NCBI GenBank assembly: GCA_025055255.1 | Contig: JANWYI010000015.1 | Span: 4,996 to 68,995 of the forward strand | DNA from: Anaerolineae bacterium | GTDB lineage: Bacteria > Chloroflexota > Anaerolineae > Aggregatilineales > UBA2796 | Direction of reading: 5' to 3' | Length of the DNA stretch: 64,000 bases | Shown here: positions 42,252 through 53,826 of the stretch, piece after piece | Layout: each line of letters starts with the position of its first letter | How positions within the stretch are numbered: position 1 is the stretch's first letter | Made by a program: the position numbers and the translations under genes | The notes under the pieces: model-generated | What the model was told of the DNA's origin: nothing | Databases searched by the model: none | What the model saw: the letters and a program-made list of their open reading frames with translations, nothing else

Positions 42252-43379
42252 TTAGGGCAGTTGTTCGTCAAGAGCGAGGTAAATGAGCTGCTCGGCGTAG
42301 GCGCAGTTGGCAGATGGTGTCATGTGAAAGTCGGTATCCGTGAACTGATCAGGCGGCACAGCGTCCCACAAGTCAAAGTAGCGCCAACCTTCGCGCTCAG
42401 CGACCTGCTGAAAGGCAACGCGGTAGCCATCATATGCCCAGCGTGGATAGTAAGTGTTATAGCGCAGTGGATGCGACTCGTTACGGTAGATCGGCTCATT
42501 GACCAAGACGGTTGGGACGCCCTGTGCAGCAGCAAGCTCAACGCCTGCCTTTAGCACGTCAAAATTCAGGTCTTCAGGCGCGATCTTGCCTGCCTCGCGC
42601 AGGCGCAGCACGTTGACCGAAAGCACGTTGTCGTCGGGCAGTAAATTGACAGGATGCGGCGCGACAAAGCGCGGCAAGACGTGATCAATGCGCGTGCTCG
42701 CCCATGCAGGCGCGTAGAGCTGGTGGCGTAGCCAATCAGCAATGTCACGACGCTGTCCAAAGAACGTGCGTTCCTGCCACGCGCGAGACGGCAACGGATA
42801 TTGGTCAAGTTTGAAGGCGTACTGCGCCTGCAGCGCTGAGACTTCCTCACGGTGTGCCAGAATCAGCGGAAAGTCGAGCTGATCAGACGGATAGAGCGAA
42901 GCAAGCGACGTTGACCAGATGATCAGGTCAGACTGATAGACTAGAGCACGGCGCAAAATCAAGAAATCCTTGATAACGGTCAACGTTGGATAGCCGAGGT
43001 TATAAGCGCGCACGCGACGTCCGTCTTCAGTGCGTAGCTCAAGCGCGTTGATACAAGCAGCCTGCGTCTGATCGGCGCGCAGCAGGTAGCCCCAGATCGC
43101 CGAGTCGCCCAGCATGACCACGCGGAACTCGTCCGCTGCTTTTGGACGCGCAATCGCATGTGACGCAAACAGCTGCTCAAGGCTGTTGACAGTCACGGCG
43201 TAAGACACTTCAGGGAACTCGGCAAATGGGAAGCGCTCGCGCGGCGGAAACAATACGCCGTAGACGCTCAGCCGATTGAGCCAGTCCAGCGGCTGTGCCG
43301 CGTACCAAAGGACGTTGAACAAGACAAACAGTGTTGCTGCCTTGACTAGGACGCGCCACAGCCGAACAGAGTCGCTCAT
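42252..43379 (-). CDS. SGNH/AlgJ-like protein paired with MBOAT acyltransferase
   Basis: N-terminal TM, VVMLGDSAIWGYLL GDS-type block, coupled to the MBOAT gene. Confidence 0.65.
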   Translation of the reverse strand: MSDSVRLWRVLVKAATLFVLFNVLWYAAQPLDWLNRLSVYGVLFPPRERFPFAEFPEVSYAVTVNSLEQLFASHAIARPKAADEFRVVMLGDSAIWGYLLRADQTQAACINALELRTEDGRRVRAYNLGYPTLTVIKDFLILRRALVYQSDLIIWSTSLASLYPSDQLDFPLILAHREEVSALQAQYAFKLDQYPLPSRAWQERTFFGQRRDIADWLRHQLYAPAWASTRIDHVLPRFVAPHPVNLLPDDNVLSVNVLRLREAGKIAPEDLNFDVLKAGVELAAAQGVPTVLVNEPIYRNESHPLRYNTYYPRWAYDGYRVAFQQVAEREGWRYFDLWDAVPPDQFTDTDFHMTPSANCAYAEQLIYLALDEQLP

Positions 43380-44578
43380 CTGCCGATCAGACCTCCAAAC
43401 GCTTTGCCGATCAACTCAGGCTCTGGTAGAGCGAAGAAAATCCAGCCGAGCGCTACGTAGTGGAACGTCGCTAAGACGCTCAGGACGCTGATCAGACGCG
43501 CCAAGAGCGGACGCGCCTTCACGAAGGCGTCCCAACTGGCTGCACGCACTGACCATTGCCTGAACAGCCATAGACCGACGCCGTGCCAAATGCCCCACAG
43601 CACAAAGTTGAGCGTCGCACCGTGCCACAAGCCGATCAAGACCATTGTGCCGAGTTGTGCGGTCAAAACCACGCCCTCGCGCCATGCTTTGAGCGGCGTG
43701 CGCAACAGTTCGCGGCTGGCAGGGGTGAAAAAGTACAGGCGGAACCATGTTGAGAGCGTGATGTGCCAGCTGTTCCAAAATGCCTGCAAATTGCGCTTGA
43801 GGTACGGCGCTTCAAAGTTCTCAGGCAGTTTGATGCCTGCCCAGATGCCGATGCCAATGGCGATGTCAGTGTAACCACTGAAATCTAGGAACAGTCGAAA
43901 GGCGTAGGCGTAGAGCATCAGCCAGAACATCGCTGCACTGACGAGCGTGCCTGTCTGCGCGTCGTTGACCAGCTGTGGCGAGAGCGCCGCGAGCGCTAGT
44001 GAGTCGGCTAAGACGAACTTCTTGAACAAGCCGCGCATCAAGCGCAAGGCGCCGTGCTTGAAGCGCTCTGGAGCAAGCGGCACTTCAAGCGCCTGTGCAA
44101 ACTGCTCTACGCGCGCAATCGGACCTGCGGCGATAGCGGGGAAAAAGAGCGCATATAGCGCAAACTGCATCAGTGGCAGTTGTTTCAGTCTACCGCTGCG
44201 GAAGTCCAGCAGGACGTGCAACAGCCGAAAGGCGAGGTAAGAGAAGCCGATCCAAGCAAACGTTTGTCCGATGTTCAGCGCGTCGCCACTTGCCATTTGC
44301 AAAGCGGGTAACTTCAAAAGGGCAAAAATGCCGATGATGCAGAACATCGCCATCAGCGCCATGCGCCGACGCGCAGGCGTATCGCGCTGAGTCAGCCACC
44401 AGACACCAGCAGTCAACGCAACGGACGCTAATGGCAGCCAGAGCGTTGGCGAGACATCCCATTGCAGCAAAATTAGGAAGATGACGCTGGCAAACAAGAG
44501 CAGCGGCAAGCGTAGCGCGCTGAACAGAGGTATGAGCAGCGCACAGAGCGCCATGCCGCCGATCAGGATCAGTGTCAT
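43376..44578 (-). CDS. MBOAT family O-acyltransferase (AlgI-like)
   Basis: FLDFSGYTDIAIGIGIWAGIKLPENFEAPYLKRNLQAFWNSWHITLSTWFR, LIGLWHGATLNFVLWGIWHG. Confidence 0.95.
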   Translation of the reverse strand: MTLILIGGMALCALLIPLFSALRLPLLLFASVIFLILLQWDVSPTLWLPLASVALTAGVWWLTQRDTPARRRMALMAMFCIIGIFALLKLPALQMASGDALNIGQTFAWIGFSYLAFRLLHVLLDFRSGRLKQLPLMQFALYALFFPAIAAGPIARVEQFAQALEVPLAPERFKHGALRLMRGLFKKFVLADSLALAALSPQLVNDAQTGTLVSAAMFWLMLYAYAFRLFLDFSGYTDIAIGIGIWAGIKLPENFEAPYLKRNLQAFWNSWHITLSTWFRLYFFTPASRELLRTPLKAWREGVVLTAQLGTMVLIGLWHGATLNFVLWGIWHGVGLWLFRQWSVRAASWDAFVKARPLLARLISVLSVLATFHYVALGWIFFALPEPELIGKAFGGLIGR

Positions 44579-44660: not shown

Positions 44661-45137
44661 TCAGCCGTTTGAGTCAGCGCGTGCTTTAACAGAGCCGCTG
44701 CCGTGCCAGAAAAGCGCGTATTTCTCATCTAGCGCTGTGCCAAAGCCGAGCGCCTCGAAAAACTCAGGCGTTGAGGTCACTACCAGCACTTGGCGGATGT
44801 TGAGCGCTTCGGCTGTCTGTGTGGCGACCTTGACCAGTGCAGCGCCGTAACCTTTGCCGCGTGCCTTCTCAGAGACGACCAGCGAGCGCAGCTCGGCAAT
44901 CTTGCGGCTGTAAATTTCCAGACAGCACGTGCCGACTATCTCGTCACCCTCAACGGCGACCCACCACGTCGGCAACAGCTCACGGATTTCATCATCAGTG
45001 CGTGGCAAGAGTTTGTCGAGGTTAGCATTAATCAGGCGCTGAATGGCAGGGATGTCTTCCTCAGTAGCAAGACGTACCGCGTTCAGCGCAACTTGGTCTG
45101 TCTGTGAAGAATGTTGTACAGGTTGCATTACCGCCAA
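44661..45137 (-). CDS. GNAT N-acetyltransferase
   Basis: LRSLVVSEKARGKGYGAALVKV acetyl-CoA site. Confidence 0.92.
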   Translation of the reverse strand: MAVMQPVQHSSQTDQVALNAVRLATEEDIPAIQRLINANLDKLLPRTDDEIRELLPTWWVAVEGDEIVGTCCLEIYSRKIAELRSLVVSEKARGKGYGAALVKVATQTAEALNIRQVLVVTSTPEFFEALGFGTALDEKYALFWHGSGSVKARADSNG

Positions 45138-46594
45138 CTAGCTCTGTAAGTGCGCACGTCTGCCTTGCCGCCTTCAAGGTAGCGCCGAACTGACTCGGCA
45201 GTCGCTGTGGCGCGATAAAGGATGACATTCGCGTCTGCGCAATCTACCACAGTCAACTGGACTGCTTTGATCGGCTCGCCAGCAGCCACCACGTGATCGG
45301 CTACCAGCTCCATTGCCTCATAAACACGGCTTTGTAGCGCCCTGCCTGAGCTGCCACAAATGGTCAAACGGAAAGTATCGCCCTCGCGGCTGGTGGCAGG
45401 CTGTGCAAAGCCGCGCTGGGCAAGGCTTTGTTGTGCATTGCGCAGCGCTTGCGTCACAGGATCAGGCGCAAGGAGAGGTACGATCAGCGCCACGAGCGCT
45501 AGAATAGCTATCACAATCACTAACAAGCTGAGCAGCGCCCAGATAGGCGAACGTCGGTTAGCACGGCGCTCTGTGGCGAACGGATCATAGGCAGGCGCCT
45601 CAGCCACAAGGCGACCTGATTTGGGACGGCGCTCACGCTCGCGCTCAGGCACAGTTGGCTGAGTCGGCGCTGCAGGCTCAGGCTCGCCATATTCAAAGGT
45701 CGTTGGCTGTTGCTCTTTTTTGCGGCGTCCGCGTCTACCGCGTTGTTTCTCCTCTTGCTGAGCAATTTGACCGACAAAAGCAGGCTCGCTACTGAAAATT
45801 GCGTCAAGTTCTGCATCAAGCTCTGCCTCTGAGCGCGTTTGCTCAGCAGGCGCGCTTTGCGGCTCGGCTCTTGCCTCAAGGAGCGCCTCAAGTCCAGCCA
45901 CTGTCTCAGCATGGTCAGAGCGTGGCTCACTTGGCGCGCTTTGTGAGCGCTCACTAGGCAAATCAGGCGCGCCTTGGCGGCGTATCTGTTGTGCTTCAGC
46001 GGTCATGCCAAAAACGGTTCTCAGATCATCCTCTTCAGTAGGCGTACTCGGCACATCCACGCTGGCTTTGCCGCCGAAGAGCTCATCAAGGTCGAGGTTG
46101 CTCTGCGCAGCGCTAGTCTCAGGCATTGACCATGCCGTGACGCTGAAGTCGTCTGTGGCAGGCGTCCAAGTCACGCTTTGTGCCTCAGGAGCAGGCGACC
46201 GTGCCAGCAGGTCGTCAATGTTGAAATCGCCAACATCGAAAGCAGGCTCAGCAGGCGGCTTGGACGTGAACTCAGGATAGTCTGTGAAGCTGAAGGAGCT
46301 TGGATCAAAGGCAGGCGCAATTGGTTGGCTCGGCGCAAGATCAGGATATTCCGCGATAAGCTGCTGATAGGCTTCGCGCGCTTCGGCATGATCAGGGCGC
46401 AGGCGCAGCACATTTGTGAGTGCCTCAGCTGCTTCTGCTGGCTCACTGACAGCGTTTGCCATCAGCCACCATGCATCTGCGTTGTCAGGATCGTTGTTGA
46501 GGACGCGCCGCAAAATCGTGATTGCCTCATCAAGCCGTTCCTGCTGAATGTATGTGTATGCCTGCTTTAATTGATTGCGCGTTTCGTTTGCCAT
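45128..46594 (-). CDS. TPR protein with single TM helix and extracytoplasmic C-terminal domain
   Basis: MANETRNQLKQAYTYIQQERLDEAITILRRVLNNDPDNADAWW TPR; TM IWALLSLLVIVIAILALVALIVPLLA; start at 46594. Confidence 0.8.
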   Translation of the reverse strand: MANETRNQLKQAYTYIQQERLDEAITILRRVLNNDPDNADAWWLMANAVSEPAEAAEALTNVLRLRPDHAEAREAYQQLIAEYPDLAPSQPIAPAFDPSSFSFTDYPEFTSKPPAEPAFDVGDFNIDDLLARSPAPEAQSVTWTPATDDFSVTAWSMPETSAAQSNLDLDELFGGKASVDVPSTPTEEDDLRTVFGMTAEAQQIRRQGAPDLPSERSQSAPSEPRSDHAETVAGLEALLEARAEPQSAPAEQTRSEAELDAELDAIFSSEPAFVGQIAQQEEKQRGRRGRRKKEQQPTTFEYGEPEPAAPTQPTVPERERERRPKSGRLVAEAPAYDPFATERRANRRSPIWALLSLLVIVIAILALVALIVPLLAPDPVTQALRNAQQSLAQRGFAQPATSREGDTFRLTICGSSGRALQSRVYEAMELVADHVVAAGEPIKAVQLTVVDCADANVILYRATATAESVRRYLEGGKADVRTYRASWR

Positions 46595-46676
46595 GCGCCA
46601 CGCCCTTTCTCTGCATGCGCTTTTGAGCGCCACACTTGGCGTCATTATAGTGAAGCAAGGCGCTTTGTGCAAACGC

Positions 46677-48146
46677 TCAATCCTGCAGGGCGCGCTGTGC
46701 TGCGCTCGCCAAAAGCCGACCGCCAATGCGCGCTGCTATGTGCACATCCTCAACAGACTCGACCACTGTAGCAAGTGCCAGAGCGCGTCCGTCGGGGAGC
46801 GCTACAAAGCCGATGAGCCAGCCGTGCTGAGTGTTGCCTGAGAAAGCGAGGCTGGCATGTGCGTAGAGCGTCGCCTCAGGCGGCAAGTCAGATGTTAGAG
46901 CGGCTTGAGCGCTGCCGCTCAAGACAGATTCGCGTAGCGCAGCGCGCATGCGCTCAGCTGCTTCACGAGTCATCGCTGCACGCTCTATCGAAAGGCGCGA
47001 CACTGGTTGCCACGTCTCAGAGTCAGGTGCGCGCAGTGCGTCTGCGATGTACGGCGTCACTAGGTTGCCGTAGTTGGCGATTCCGCTCGCTACAAGCGCC
47101 ATTTGCAACGGCGTAACAGTCAAGTCACCTTGTCCGACGCCTGCGCGCAGACGATCTGTTGGTGCGGTCAACTCGTTAAGTGGCGTAACGCGCCGCTCAG
47201 CAGCGACTGGATAGCCGTCCAAAGGCGAGACGCTCAGCAGTCCGAAGGCGGCGATTTTCTCCTGCACCTGAGCAGGGTATTCAAGGGCAAACTCAGCGAA
47301 AAGGCGCGGACAGCCGTACGCAAGCGCGTCTTCTAAGCCTTTGATTGGCGCAGATGGCTCAACAGCGCAGCGTACGGTCAGCGCGTCGAGGCTAAGAGGC
47401 AAGGCAGCCGACGCGAATGTGTGTGGTTGCCCAGCAGGATTGGCTAACATCGCCGCGTAAATGATGAGTTGTAGTGCACCGCCTAACTGGTAAGTGCCTT
47501 GCAGAGCGCGATTGAGCAGCGGCGCGCTCGGATCGTTGCGCAGCCGTTCCCAATCCGCATCAAGGGTATTCGGATCGTAGATCGGCGTGCTGTAGAGCAG
47601 CCGCACAGCGCCGCTCGGCACCTCCAGCAACACAGCGGCGCCGCGGTGCTCACCAAAGGCTTGTGCCGCAACGACTTGCAGCTGTACGTCTACTGTCAGG
47701 CGCAAATCGTCACCACGTAGTGGACGATTGAGCAACTCATCGAGCGCAGCCGACCAAGCATCCGAACGCGCCGTGCCACGCAAAGCGTCCTCAAAGGCGA
47801 ACTCTGCGCCGCTGCTCCCATAAACCAGACTGTAATAACCTGTGACGCTGAAAGCAGACTCATGCGGATAGACACGGCGCTGCGCAACTGCGCCAGAGAG
47901 CATGCGTCCGCTCGGCTCAGAGCGTGCCAAAACGACGCTATTGCGGTCAAGAATGCGTCCGCGCACAGTAGCGCGCTCAGCTTCTATGCGGCGCGGATTA
48001 TCGGCGCGTGTGCGCAGCCTATCGCGTTCAATCACGCTCCAGTAGGTCAAATTTAGCGCGACAATCAAAAAGGCTATCAGACTGCCAATCGCAACATTTT
48101 GCAGGCGCCTGCCCACAGACACCTCAACCGCACTTGACAGCTTCAA
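46677..48146 (-). CDS. Penicillin-binding transpeptidase-like protein lacking SxxK, SxN and KTG motifs
   Basis: PbpA/FtsI-like architecture (GRILDRNSVVLARS, TGYYSLVYG, VTPLQMALVASGIANYG, HGWLIGFVALPDG) with degenerate catalytic motifs. Confidence 0.82.
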   Translation of the reverse strand: MKLSSAVEVSVGRRLQNVAIGSLIAFLIVALNLTYWSVIERDRLRTRADNPRRIEAERATVRGRILDRNSVVLARSEPSGRMLSGAVAQRRVYPHESAFSVTGYYSLVYGSSGAEFAFEDALRGTARSDAWSAALDELLNRPLRGDDLRLTVDVQLQVVAAQAFGEHRGAAVLLEVPSGAVRLLYSTPIYDPNTLDADWERLRNDPSAPLLNRALQGTYQLGGALQLIIYAAMLANPAGQPHTFASAALPLSLDALTVRCAVEPSAPIKGLEDALAYGCPRLFAEFALEYPAQVQEKIAAFGLLSVSPLDGYPVAAERRVTPLNELTAPTDRLRAGVGQGDLTVTPLQMALVASGIANYGNLVTPYIADALRAPDSETWQPVSRLSIERAAMTREAAERMRAALRESVLSGSAQAALTSDLPPEATLYAHASLAFSGNTQHGWLIGFVALPDGRALALATVVESVEDVHIAARIGGRLLASAAQRALQD

Positions 48147-49032
48147 TCAGCGACAGGCTGCCATTTTCTGTCAAAAGCACTATGTAACCTGCCTCAACGT
48201 GCCAGATCAGTGCCTCTGCTGGCACAGTGAGCTTGAGCTCACTGTGCGGCATGGTCTCTGAAAAACACAGCAAGCGATTGCCGAGCAATACAAGGGCACG
48301 CGCCGCGTCAGGACTCCACGTCACTTGGTGGACAAACTCACCTTCGCCTAGCGGCAAATAGAGCGGTCTGTAGTGGCGCGAAGTTACTTGCCAGATGAAG
48401 ACATCAAACAGCGTGCCGACTCCGAGCAGATCGTCGCCCAGACTTTGTAGGCTGAGCGGCGGACGTAGCTCAGCTGTGTAGCGATCTTGTAAATTGCCGA
48501 TGCTGTCATAGCGCACTAGGAAACCTTGCTCGTACGTGCCGCGCAAGGCGCCGCCAACGGCTAGCCTATCGCCTTGCCATGCCAGAGCTGTCACAATACC
48601 TTCGGCTGACCATTCAGCTATGAGCGCAAGCGGTCTAGTTTGCCATATCTGCACACGATCACTACCTGCAGCGGCAAGCCGTGCGCCATTAGCTTGCCAT
48701 GCAAGAGCGCGAATGTCAGAAGACTCTGCTGTGCTGCATTCCTGTCTAAAATCTGGCACAGACCACAAACATAGGCGTCCGTTGGCGTCGCCTGTGGCAA
48801 GCAGGACGCCTTCAGGTTGCCATGCCAGAGCTGTCAGCGCTGCACCTCTGCCACCTAGCACTGCCAGAAGCTGTTGAGTGTGTGCATCGTACAGACGCAC
48901 TTGATCCTCAACGCCAAGCGCGATCATGTTATTTGTCGCGCTCCACGTCATCAGCAAGCGACCTTTGGCGTGGCTGGTCATGCTGCTGCTCAACAAGATA
49001 CTGAGCAGAATCAGCGCGCTAATCCATCTCAT
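48124..49032 (-). CDS. Secreted WD40-like beta-propeller protein
   Basis: Signal peptide, then ALAWQPEGVLLATGDANGRLCLWSVPD, ALAWQANGARLAAAGSDRVQIWQ repeats. Confidence 0.8.
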   Translation of the reverse strand: MRWISALILLSILLSSSMTSHAKGRLLMTWSATNNMIALGVEDQVRLYDAHTQQLLAVLGGRGAALTALAWQPEGVLLATGDANGRLCLWSVPDFRQECSTAESSDIRALAWQANGARLAAAGSDRVQIWQTRPLALIAEWSAEGIVTALAWQGDRLAVGGALRGTYEQGFLVRYDSIGNLQDRYTAELRPPLSLQSLGDDLLGVGTLFDVFIWQVTSRHYRPLYLPLGEGEFVHQVTWSPDAARALVLLGNRLLCFSETMPHSELKLTVPAEALIWHVEAGYIVLLTENGSLSLIEAVKCG

Positions 49033-49846
49033 AGCCGCCGTCAATGTTCAAGGCTTGCCCTGTGATGTAATCTGACTCAGGGGCGCACAAAAAGGCGACC
49101 ACCTGTGCCACATCTTGGCAGGTCGCTGGACGGCGCAATGGTACTTTCTCATCAACGCGCTGCTGTAGCCAAGCGCCTTTAGGCAGACCACGCCGCTGTT
49201 GCCCCTCGACCAGGTCTATGTAATCCCACATTGGTGTCTGCACTAGACCAGGGCATACTGCATTGACGTTAATGTTATAAGGCGCGAGGCGCAAAGCGGC
49301 GCTCTGTGTAATGCTGATAACCGCTGCTTTTGAGGCGGCGTATTGCGGCGCATTGGCTCTGCCACGCCTGCCCGTCACTGAGGACAGATTGACGATCTTG
49401 CCAAAGCTGCGCGGCGCGCGTCCTGCCGCCTTGATTGCCTCTGGCACTTGAGCGATCATTTGCCGCGCCACGCTCTGCAAGGTGAAAAACAGACCTTCCA
49501 CATTGGTGTGCATCAGCCAACGCCATTGCTCAGGCGTGATTTCCATCAAATCCACGCGCTCGTTGACGCCTGCATTGTTGATCAAAATGTCAATGCGCCC
49601 GAAATGCTCAGCTACCGCAGCAACCATGCTGCGCACTGCTGCATGATCGCCAACATCTAGCACATGTACCTGTGCCTGCACTCCGAGAGCGCGCACTTTC
49701 TCGCCTGTGCGATGCGCCGTCTCAGGATTGATCTCAGCGATCACGATGTGCGCGCCTTGCTCAGCGAAATGCAGCGCTATTGCCTCGCCAATGCCCTGTC
49801 CTGCACCTGTGACTATTGCAACCTTGTCCTGAAAGCGTTTGTCCAT
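49019..49846 (-). CDS. SDR family oxidoreductase
   Basis: VTGAGQGIGEAIALHFAEQGA, NNAGVNE, YAASKAA. Confidence 0.95.
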   Translation of the reverse strand: MDKRFQDKVAIVTGAGQGIGEAIALHFAEQGAHIVIAEINPETAHRTGEKVRALGVQAQVHVLDVGDHAAVRSMVAAVAEHFGRIDILINNAGVNERVDLMEITPEQWRWLMHTNVEGLFFTLQSVARQMIAQVPEAIKAAGRAPRSFGKIVNLSSVTGRRGRANAPQYAASKAAVISITQSAALRLAPYNINVNAVCPGLVQTPMWDYIDLVEGQQRRGLPKGAWLQQRVDEKVPLRRPATCQDVAQVVAFLCAPESDYITGQALNIDGGYEMD

Positions 49847-49879: not shown

Positions 49880-50260
49880 TCATGCGCCGTCTTCGTCCAG
49901 TGCCTCAAGGTTTGAACCACTCTGAATACCATCAAAGCGTAGCCATGTGCGCCCAACGCGAAAGAGCGTGTTCGGCGCGATCTCATGAGGCTGCTCAGCA
50001 GCGACTTTGTCGTTGCGAAAGCCGATGAAAGTGCCATTGCGGCTGTTCTTGTCAACAAGAACACAGCGCCCTGAGCTCAGCTCACAGATTAAGTGCGCAT
50101 GCGTGCGCGAGACTTGCTGGTCATACTCAATGTTGATGTGCGCGCCTTGACTGCGCCCGATCACGATAGTCATCGCCTTGCTGTCACTCGGCACTTCCCA
50201 TGAGAGCGTCTTGCCGTCGAGCGGACCGCTCATGTACGTGATTGAGACTGTTTGACGCAT
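49880..50260 (-). CDS. FHA domain protein
   Basis: IGRSQGAHINIEYDQQVSRTHAHLICE...LVDKNSRNGTFIG. Confidence 0.92.
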   Translation of the reverse strand: MRQTVSITYMSGPLDGKTLSWEVPSDSKAMTIVIGRSQGAHINIEYDQQVSRTHAHLICELSSGRCVLVDKNSRNGTFIGFRNDKVAAEQPHEIAPNTLFRVGRTWLRFDGIQSGSNLEALDEDGA

Positions 50261-50271
50261 AGTTCGATTGA

Positions 50272-53200
50272 CTACTGTTGCCTATTTTTGAGTTTCTGGC
50301 GTGCTTCACGACGCTTCAACTCGGCTCTGGAGTAGTCAGGCTTCAAGGCGAGCGCTTGATTGAGCGCCCTGATTGCTTCAGGATAGTTGCCGTCTTCAAT
50401 CAGCACCTCGCCGAGATTGTACCAGAACCGTGCATTTCGGCTGTGTAGCTCGGTAGCGCGCTTGAGCGACTGCAAGGCTTCAGCGCGCCTGCCGAGCGCC
50501 GCATATGCCAAGCCTTCACCTTCCCAAGCCAGTGGCAATTGCGGCGCTAACTCGCGCGCTTTGGCATACGAGTCTAGCGCTTCCGCGTGGCGATGCAAGC
50601 GGCGCAGGCTCTCGCCATGCTGTGTCCAGAGCTGTGCAGCACGTTGTGAGTTGGCAGGCAAGGCGGCTAAGCTTTCAACACATACCCGCAGTGCTTCTTC
50701 ATGTTTGCCTAGCCGATGCAAAAGGTTCAGCACATTCAGGCGATACCGCGTGACATGCGGCGCATAGTGTAGCGCTTGTTCAAAGGCTTCAAGCGCTTGA
50801 GAGGCCTGTCCCAAGCGCTCCAAGAGAATGCCACGCTCATTATGCGCTTTTGCGTATTCAGGCGCTAAACTAAGAGCGCGATCACAGGCTTCAAGTGCCT
50901 CAGGGTAACGCTTGAGGCGGCGCAAGACGGTAGCGCGCAGCGCGTGCGCCTCAGCCGTGTTGACAGGCTCTAAAAGCGAGAGCGCTTCAGCCAGCTGACC
51001 GCGTCGTGCCTGTAGTGCCGCCAGCTGGACTTGATACCAAGTCTGCGCAGGTTTCAAGGTCAGGGCGCGTTGCCACGCCGAGACAGCCTCATCATAGCGC
51101 GTGAGGCGCTCTAGCGCAAAGGCGCGTCTTGTCCACAGCCACGCTTGGTCGCTGCGCTGCTGTAGAGCGCGGTCAAAGGCGTCAAGCGCGTTTGCCGCCT
51201 CACCATTTCGCAAGTAAGCAGTGCCTAGACGCACTAGCGTTATGAAATCGTCAGGGCGCTGTTTTAGTACAGCTTGCAGAGCATCAACGGCTTCGTTGTA
51301 TTGCCTCAAAGCGAGCAAAGCTAGGCTTTTGCCTGTCAGTGCTGTTATGTGCTGCGCATGACGCTGCAAAACCTGTTCGTAGGCGTTCAATGCCTCAGCT
51401 GGACGGTTGTGATGCAGATGAATGCGTCCAAGCCTCAGCCAGACGCTCGCGCTTTCAGGGTGCAGACGTTTGGCTTGCTCCAGCGCTGTGAGCGCCTGAG
51501 GCAGGTTGCCGCTGATCAGGTAGATATCGGCAAGGCTCAACCACACAGAGAAGTCCTTTGGCAACAGGCGCGAAGCCTTCAAAAAGGTGCTGATTGCCTC
51601 AGAGTGCCGTCTGAGCGCCTTGAGTGCCTTGCCACGCCCGACAAATGCCTCGCCTAGCTCGCGGTCGAGCTGCAGAGCGCGCTCAAAAGCCGCCAGTGCC
51701 TCGTGAACTTGCGCCAAGCGCATGAGAATGTGTCCACGCAGGACATGGCTCAAAGCATGTTCAGGATCAATGGCTAGGGCAGACTGAATCTGCTCAAGGG
51801 CTGCCTCAGGCTGACCGAGCTGCAGCAGCAAGCGCGCATGATTGTAAGTCGCCCAGATATCACGCGGATTGAGCGCTGCTGCACGTTTGTAAGCGGCTTG
51901 AGCTTGGTCATATTGCTTCAGCCGCTCATAGACAATGCCTTTGTTGTACCATGCCCAAGCAAAGTCAGGCCTCAATGCTAGCGCACGCTCAAAAGTTGCC
52001 AGCGCCTCGTCATAGCGTTTGACTTGGCGCAACACACGCCCTTTGCGCGCCCATATCCAAGCCGAGTTAGGATCGAGCGCCAAGGCTTGGTCATAAACGC
52101 TCAAAGCCTCTTGATGGCGCTTGAGTTCGCTCAGGCTGTAGGCTTTGTCCATCAGCTCGTCACGCTCAAGGGCGACTGGGCTATCTTCTAGAGGCGGCGG
52201 ATTACCAGTGAGCGCTTGGTAGCACTGCGCTAACTCTGTCCGCAGCTCTAGCCAAGTCTGTGGACGTGCCTCACGGCGCGGTTTCAGGCAGCGTAGTATG
52301 AGATCGCATAAATCAGCGGGCAACTGCTCGGCAAGCTCAGGCGGAAAGCGCACAGGACGGCTGTGAAGCTCTCGCAGAGCCTGTATACTTCTTGCGCCGC
52401 TAAACGGCTGAATGCCTGTCAGCATCTCATAAAGGATGATACCAAAGGCAAAAATGTCGGCGCGCGCGTCGAGCGGCTGCAAGCTCGGCGTGTACTGCTC
52501 AGGCGCCATGTATGCAAGCGTACCAGCGACTTTGCCCGGCTGCGTGAAGCGTCTGTCATCCAATCGCTGAGACTCAGTCGAGAGAGACGGCACACCTTGC
52601 ACCTCTGTGAAGCTATCTCGTGCGCGTCCGAGTCCGAAGTCAGTCACTTTAGCGACGCCGTCATGGCGCACGAGGATGTTGCCGGGCTTCAAATCTCGGT
52701 GGACAAAACCTTCCTTTTTGGTGACAGCGTGTAACATGCCGTTGCAGACGCCTAGCGCAATTTCAAGGCTCAGTTGTGGCGTCAGGCGCTTGTGTTTGAT
52801 CCAGCCGCGCAGATCACTACCTAAATCTGCGGCGCCGCGCACATACTCAAGGATAATGTGTGGACGTTCGCTCGCATGGCTCTTGCCGAATGAGGCAACT
52901 TTGTAGGCACGCACAATGTTAGGATGCTTGTCCATCTCAACCCAGAGCCATGCCTCGTGCTCAAAGCGCTGCTTACTTGTTTCATCGTTCAGAAAGCGCG
53001 CCTGAAAAGTCTTGAGCGCTACAAATGTATCAGAGTGCTCATCAAGGCAAATATAAACGATACCCATGCCGCCTTCGAGGATATCCCGAACGCGGTAGCG
53101 CTCGCCGATCAAATCGCCGCGCTGAAAATCGCTGCTCGCCAAGTCGAACTCAGAGACTAGCTCGCTCCTAGTTATTTCTGGAGCACCTGTTCGACCTAGC

Positions 53201-53826
53201 TGCCATGCAGTGTTTAACTCTATCTTCGTCTCTGTTGTCTCATCGTCTTCTAGCAGTTCCTCGTCTCTCTCTAGCCAGTCAGACGGCACTGTTTCTGCAT
53301 ACGCTGTTTGAGGTGGCGCCACGGCGCGCAACGCTGCTGCATACCATTGCGCCAATTCCAGCGCAGCAGCGCGCGACTCAGCGTCTAAGCGTTCTAGAGA
53401 GACTTCAGCTACTGCCCAGAGTGCCACGCCGATGTTATTGGGACTTGGCGTGCTGTGCGCCACATTCACAATCCAAGCAGCTAAATTTGCCTGTGCTACG
53501 CCTGCTAACGCCTGATCAGTAGGCTGTGAGGCAAGCCGACCAGCACGCTTATAGGCTTGCAGTGCTTTTGCCACGTAGAGAATGTTGAGCCGTTCGCCTT
53601 CATAGGCGCGTTGAGCGCACAGGTCGCCCAGAGCGAAGTAGTCAGCAGCTTGTGATGGCACACGCCGCAGCGCGAGCCGCCCTAGACGCCGAATGTCAGG
53701 ATCAGGATCAGCAGCGAAGAGATCAACATCATCCTCGAGATGCGGCGCAGCCAGCAGCAGTTGTTCGTCACCCGCCGAGAGAAGCGCAGGTTGTAGTCCG
53801 ACTTGTGGCGCGCGCCAAAGGCTCAT
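50272..53826 (-). CDS. Ser/Thr protein kinase with long C-terminal TPR array
   Basis: GERYRVRDILEGGMGIVY, VALKTF, HRDLKPGNILV, VTDFGLGRA, YMAPEQY; many TPRs after residue ~550; 1184 aa. Confidence 0.93.
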   Translation of the reverse strand: MSLWRAPQVGLQPALLSAGDEQLLLAAPHLEDDVDLFAADPDPDIRRLGRLALRRVPSQAADYFALGDLCAQRAYEGERLNILYVAKALQAYKRAGRLASQPTDQALAGVAQANLAAWIVNVAHSTPSPNNIGVALWAVAEVSLERLDAESRAAALELAQWYAAALRAVAPPQTAYAETVPSDWLERDEELLEDDETTETKIELNTAWQLGRTGAPEITRSELVSEFDLASSDFQRGDLIGERYRVRDILEGGMGIVYICLDEHSDTFVALKTFQARFLNDETSKQRFEHEAWLWVEMDKHPNIVRAYKVASFGKSHASERPHIILEYVRGAADLGSDLRGWIKHKRLTPQLSLEIALGVCNGMLHAVTKKEGFVHRDLKPGNILVRHDGVAKVTDFGLGRARDSFTEVQGVPSLSTESQRLDDRRFTQPGKVAGTLAYMAPEQYTPSLQPLDARADIFAFGIILYEMLTGIQPFSGARSIQALRELHSRPVRFPPELAEQLPADLCDLILRCLKPRREARPQTWLELRTELAQCYQALTGNPPPLEDSPVALERDELMDKAYSLSELKRHQEALSVYDQALALDPNSAWIWARKGRVLRQVKRYDEALATFERALALRPDFAWAWYNKGIVYERLKQYDQAQAAYKRAAALNPRDIWATYNHARLLLQLGQPEAALEQIQSALAIDPEHALSHVLRGHILMRLAQVHEALAAFERALQLDRELGEAFVGRGKALKALRRHSEAISTFLKASRLLPKDFSVWLSLADIYLISGNLPQALTALEQAKRLHPESASVWLRLGRIHLHHNRPAEALNAYEQVLQRHAQHITALTGKSLALLALRQYNEAVDALQAVLKQRPDDFITLVRLGTAYLRNGEAANALDAFDRALQQRSDQAWLWTRRAFALERLTRYDEAVSAWQRALTLKPAQTWYQVQLAALQARRGQLAEALSLLEPVNTAEAHALRATVLRRLKRYPEALEACDRALSLAPEYAKAHNERGILLERLGQASQALEAFEQALHYAPHVTRYRLNVLNLLHRLGKHEEALRVCVESLAALPANSQRAAQLWTQHGESLRRLHRHAEALDSYAKARELAPQLPLAWEGEGLAYAALGRRAEALQSLKRATELHSRNARFWYNLGEVLIEDGNYPEAIRALNQALALKPDYSRAELKRREARQKLKNRQQ

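Follow-up and report, generated by a model that had tools for sequence, protein, structure and literature searches.

The gene studied here encodes a PbpA-derived class B penicillin-binding protein (PBP) whose transpeptidase chemistry was lost long ago and which has probably been kept as a non-catalytic activator or scaffold of SEDS3, a glycan polymerase. We refer to the protein as pseudo-PbpA; SEDS3 is the third gene of the FtsW/RodA (SEDS) family in a genome that carries two further SEDS genes. The pseudo-PbpA gene lies in a window (the whole stretch of DNA analyzed) of 64,000 nucleotides from an Anaerolineae bacterium of the phylum Chloroflexota. A retained non-enzymatic role had been suggested in the initial annotation of this DNA, and such a role is well supported, as the dead state spans the order, the replacing residues form a conserved signature and the gene is under purifying selection. 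One of the functions then proposed, that of a scaffold, comes near to our best reading but lacked the partner, a SEDS polymerase encoded next door or fused to the dead PBP in relatives; the link to SEDS3 is new in this analysis.

As described before, the open reading frame is full length: it is open throughout from 48146 to 46677 on the minus strand and specifies 489 amino acids from the listed TTG at 48146 (residue numbers of the motifs refer to this 489-residue frame). Since the orthologues in the genus begin with an ATG at the codon equivalent to the GTG at 48116, the true start is probably this GTG, which would yield a protein of 479 amino acids. The overlap of about 23 bp reported with a beta-propeller gene is probably an artefact of the start codon, as the GTG at 48116 lies 7 bases past the TGA of that gene and leaves a 7 bp gap. 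As a sign of coupling the overlap is likewise probably artefactual, the ATG starts of the orthologues placing the gene outside its neighbor. The gene and its domains are:

46677..48116, minus strand: pseudo-PbpA gene, catalytically dead class B PBP (PF00905 and PF21922; AlphaFold2 model; start from genus orthologues)
48033..48098, minus strand: N-terminal transmembrane helix, about residues 17-38 (AlphaFold2 helix 6-45 and the hydrophobic stretch VAIGSLIAFLIVALNLTYW)
47709..47963, minus strand: pedestal, or PbpA dimerization domain, residues 62-146 (PF21922)
46716..47642, minus strand: transpeptidase fold, residues 169-477 (PF00905; fold match to PBPA structures)

The class B, PbpA-type scaffold recognized in the initial annotation was borne out by domain searches and by structure prediction. 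Pfam reports the transpeptidase domain PF00905 with 60.2 bits (cut-off 22.1) and, as expected of the PbpA subfamily, PF21922 (PBP_dimer_2, 'Penicillin binding protein A dimerisation domain') with 40.2 bits (cut-off 27). The AlphaFold2 model of pseudo-PbpA (mean pLDDT 87.8, pTM 0.84) found its best fold match in Mycobacterium tuberculosis PBPA (3upn_B, E 3.8e-30, TMt 0.80), and related PbpA structures matched as well. Taken with the PDB fold matches, these data reveal the architecture of class B PBPs, i.e., an N-terminal membrane helix, which presumably inserts into the membrane, followed by a pedestal and a transpeptidase fold. M. tuberculosis PBPA (3UN7/3UPN), which is also among the best PDB sequence matches, shares this domain order of pedestal and PbpA-type transpeptidase fold. 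While that protein is acylated by beta-lactams (3upn, 3upo, 3upp), pseudo-PbpA possesses neither the nucleophile nor the SxxK, SxN and KTG motifs. The corresponding sites are:

47469..47480, minus strand: SxxK site, reading G223-A-L-Q226 (alignment to orthologues and PbpA)
47307..47315, minus strand: SxN site, reading G278-C279-P280 (alignment; Cys 47/47, Pro 47/47)
46851..46859, minus strand: KTG site, reading H430-A431-S432 (alignment; His 41/47, Lys 0/47)
47367..47369, minus strand: Cys260, invariant (47/47), 19 residues before Cys279 (order-level orthologues)

The reported losses of SxxK and SxN proved correct, with GALQ and GCP standing where these motifs had been placed. KTG is lost as well, but its site had been misassigned to FSGNTQ; the true KTG position reads HAS and lies five residues upstream of it. 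Intact Ser, Lys or KTG residues do not reside elsewhere in the fold either, because a scan of the whole protein found no further SxxK or K[ST]G and pseudo-PbpA contains just three lysines (residues 2, 269, and 297); a relocation of the catalytic residues is thereby ruled out. Orthologues with equal motif losses, whose search had been advised, were found throughout the order: the Lys of SxxK, the SxN motif and the KTG motif are absent in all 47 distinct order-level orthologues, a loss that, judged from the aligned sequences, is more than chance. The nucleophilic Ser is also missing in 43 of them, and none of the four that keep it has the Lys or KTG. In this set, the Ser position is occupied by G (35), S (4), T (4) or A (4), the Lys position of SxxK by Q (37), E (8) or Y (2), and the Lys position of KTG by H (41), Q (4), Y (1) or A (1), while SxN reads x-C-P in 47/47. 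The common replacement signature is Y-Q-P-G-(G)-x-x-Q / C-P-x-x-F / G-H-A together with an invariant Cys pair; the invariant positions are Y219, G222, C260, C279, P280, G338, Q339, W443, and G446.

We searched 61 genomes, the window's own and 60 of its order, for orthologues. Sixty gave some match, many of them weak ones that represent other PBPs; by our reading of the match list, 53 possess an orthologue or a fragment of one. Within the genus, dN/dS of pseudo-PbpA is about 0.10-0.19, similar to the 0.11-0.14 of SEDS3, both being rough figures since synonymous sites are near saturation; the proposed dN/dS check thus points to purifying selection. That pseudo-PbpA is a recent pseudogene or a decaying allele might be suspected from the loss of all three motifs, but the reading frame is open in all listed full-length orthologues except one (G027, with a single in-frame TGA), and these dN/dS values and the dead state of the whole clade likewise render this reading extremely improbable. 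We reject recent decay on account of the order-wide dead state, the single dead clade and the purifying selection.

A comparison of gene positions showed that 50 of the 61 genomes contain both the dead PBP and SEDS3, and in 44 of these 50 the dead PBP is encoded directly downstream of SEDS3, at a distance of less than 100 bp. In the remaining six, the two genes are on different contigs (four members of the window's genus), both at contig ends (G007) or 1.9 kb apart (G016). Neither gene occurs in six genomes, and five further genomes are discordant (Fisher p 4e-5, kinship ignored); two genomes, G038 and G051, contain a SEDS3-like match without a strong PBP match, the former at a contig end and the latter weak. 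The window's genus has kept both genes, and since they are unlinked there, the partnership in this genus rests on co-occurrence and orthology. The catalytic Asp of the HxD motif, which corresponds to D262 of RodA (PMC10449877) and to D297 of FtsW (PMC8765783), is present in every SEDS3 sequence that covers the site, and nearly all contain SYGG. The genes at the locus follow, in several families, the order PpiC-type PPIase, FhaA, FhaB, PNP-superfamily phosphorylase, SEDS3 and pseudo-PbpA, with MurJ farther downstream. A SEDS/FHA cluster is thus found in relatives (L050 has FhaA_N and FHA genes upstream), whereas SEDS3 is located elsewhere in the window's genus. In many loci the phosphorylase gene (L050:3790-4683) separates the FHA genes from SEDS3, and in the window's genus it has remained with SEDS3. 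The surroundings of pseudo-PbpA in the window comprise:

48124..49044, minus strand: beta-propeller (WD40-like) gene, 7 bp from the pseudo-PbpA gene (Pfam; same order in G001, G003, G004)
49880..50260, minus strand: small FHA-domain protein (PF00498, 44.6 bits)
50272..53826, minus strand: Ser/Thr kinase domain with TPR array (PF00069, 123.8 bits, and TPRs)
45128..46726, minus strand: TPR protein, start of the reading frame uncertain (TPR Pfam matches; genus synteny)

The beta-propeller neighborhood was seen in the window's genus only. Between 48124 and 53826, the Ser/Thr kinase-TPR, small FHA, SDR-like and beta-propeller genes form a genus-conserved run beside pseudo-PbpA. At 42252-44578, a membrane O-acyltransferase-like frame precedes an SGNH-like one (a reading of the sequence; the latter has no Pfam match).

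To place the dead state in a wider context, we compared 60 loci sampled across Chloroflexota. PbpA is intact in most other members of the phylum, where it is part of the same SEDS-PbpA gene pair, as well as in two families from the window's own class (G188, with SEDS adjacent; G148, with no SEDS in the stretch examined). The dead form occurs in the window's order, in the class families f9, f10, f12, f15, f17, and f19, and in G071 outside the class. In the SEDS tree, 44 dead sequences form one branch (SH-aLRT 99) with G071 outside; a single dead clade including G071 (locus L094) is not rejected (p-AU 0.779), and on this basis two independent losses are not established. On a quick tree, the SEDS-PBP of L094 (G071:C456), which is both dead and fused, falls outside the main dead clade; this possibly reflects a second loss, or else transfer or misplacement. 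Fusions of SEDS and PBP into a single reading frame were found in 15 of 45 dead sequences vs. none of 31 intact ones, with 4-5 changes on the SEDS tree. The fused loci (L073, L076, L086, L094, L101, L111, L113, L116, L119, L120, L122-L125, and L127) come from several families and all carry a dead PBP; some fused forms are devoid of the SxN region. A shortened dead PBP (402 amino acids; L055:5974-7179) lies beside SEDS3 in an Anaerolineales MAG and is missing the SxN surroundings; its single-sequence AlphaFold2 model is unusable (pLDDT 35.5). In L126 and L135, paired PbpA-type genes stand side by side with no same-strand SEDS in the stretch examined, and the SxN region of one L135 copy is unusual.

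Loss of catalysis is accompanied by a shift in constraint. At matched SEDS identity (0.4-0.5; pairs non-independent), the pedestal is the better conserved domain in dead order-level pairs (0.375 vs. 0.311 for the transpeptidase domain), while the reverse holds for intact pairs (0.392 for the transpeptidase domain vs. 0.334 for the pedestal). In the other dead families, gaps occur in 30% of transpeptidase columns vs. 7% of pedestal columns. Since the window's order has kept most of the transpeptidase fold, this head may do more than a pedestal alone requires.

One function for the head would be that of a sensor, in which the dead cleft binds a stem peptide or muropeptide and signals to SEDS3 or to nearby FHA and kinase proteins. 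FHA and kinase genes do lie nearby, and the old active-site positions carry a conserved new set of residues (Y, Q, C, P, and H) instead of random ones. Nothing was found specifically in favor of the muropeptide sensor mentioned in the initial annotation, however, and related dead-PBP families have lost portions of the cleft, among them the SxN region, yet retain the fusion to SEDS; together with the lower conservation of the transpeptidase domain relative to the pedestal, this makes a sensor unlikely. We also think it rather improbable that SEDS3 produces a glycan that is not cross-linked, be it modified peptidoglycan or another polymer, and that transpeptidase loss followed this change of product. 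Its partner would then need no transpeptidase because the glycan is not cross-linked, in keeping with the stable, clade-wide loss of catalysis and with the two additional SEDS genes; yet the HxD Asp and SYGG motifs are preserved in SEDS3, the lipid II flippase MurJ is also encoded at the locus in several families, and other PBPs are able to cross-link.

New chemistry in the cleft, e.g., via the invariant Cys279 and the nearly invariant His430, is very improbable. Cys279 is the x of SxN, a position at which actinobacterial PbpA has a Cys as well; in M. tuberculosis PBPA this residue faces a beta-hairpin and forms a disulfide with it (PMC9974482). The presence of a second invariant Cys 19 residues upstream likewise speaks against new chemistry, and nothing suggests a substrate. 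By analogy, the Cys260-Cys279 pair fits such a disulfide; alternatively, it may have been retained for a Zn site of the kind described for SpoVD-like PBPs (PMC9334274).

We return to pseudo-PbpA as a putative non-catalytic activator or scaffold of SEDS3. Its membrane helix and pedestal would bind SEDS3 and hold or switch the polymerase into its active state, in parallel to the action of catalytic class B PBPs on RodA and FtsW; the activating role alone would be retained, and new strands would be cross-linked by the cell's other, intact PBPs, of which the window's genome encodes at least seven with SxxK and KTG. Nearby FHA proteins and the Ser/Thr kinase may regulate the complex, in the manner of actinobacterial fha-rodA-pbpA-pknB clusters. 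As with actinobacterial pbpA, the gene adjoins a SEDS gene in relatives and has FHA genes in its vicinity. Activation of SEDS3 is inferred by analogy: class B PBPs activate their SEDS partners allosterically (PMC12713402, PMC6207328, PMC10257715), and the pedestal of PBP2 activates RodA (PMC6207328). Non-catalytic class B PBPs can still serve the division machinery, since PBP2B S309A supports division of Bacillus subtilis (PMC5656894) and SpoVD S311A of Clostridioides difficile partly supports asymmetric division while depending on its SEDS partner SpoVE (PMC12713402). These are laboratory point mutants, whereas the loss in pseudo-PbpA is natural, clade-wide and long retained.

As in RodA-PBP2 and FtsW-FtsI, a SEDS protein with a conserved catalytic Asp is paired with one cognate class B PBP. 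Unlike in these systems, the catalytic motifs for the cross-linking part are absent from the pseudo-PbpA sequence, so that polymerization and cross-linking would be separated, and SEDS3 and the dead PBP are often one fused gene in related families; these natural fusions bear on the question of a physical complex. Rhodococcus RHA1 has a natural SEDS-PBP fusion (cited in PMC10449877), a single reading frame with both parts, which we compare by gene architecture only; all Chloroflexota fusions seen carry a dead PBP. Our searches of open-access PMC papers turned up no report of a class B PBP that is naturally dead and paired with a SEDS protein. Tentatively, and with considerable doubt, one might see here a natural class of wall synthases in which polymerization is uncoupled from cross-linking, an active SEDS protein is driven by a dead class B PBP, fusion has occurred several times, and the strand is possibly not cross-linked where it is made or is not ordinary peptidoglycan.

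In model systems, class B PBPs are believed to have two roles, cross-linking of the wall and activation of their SEDS partner, and point mutants have separated the two. One lineage appears to have separated cross-linking from SEDS activation by itself, and intact and dead versions of the gene pair exist in one phylum. What a SEDS protein requires from its class B PBP can hence be tested by comparison, as the helix and pedestal are kept while the cleft is eroding. The finding also bears on beta-lactam action on such cells, because the complex of SEDS3 and the dead PBP would offer no penicillin target.
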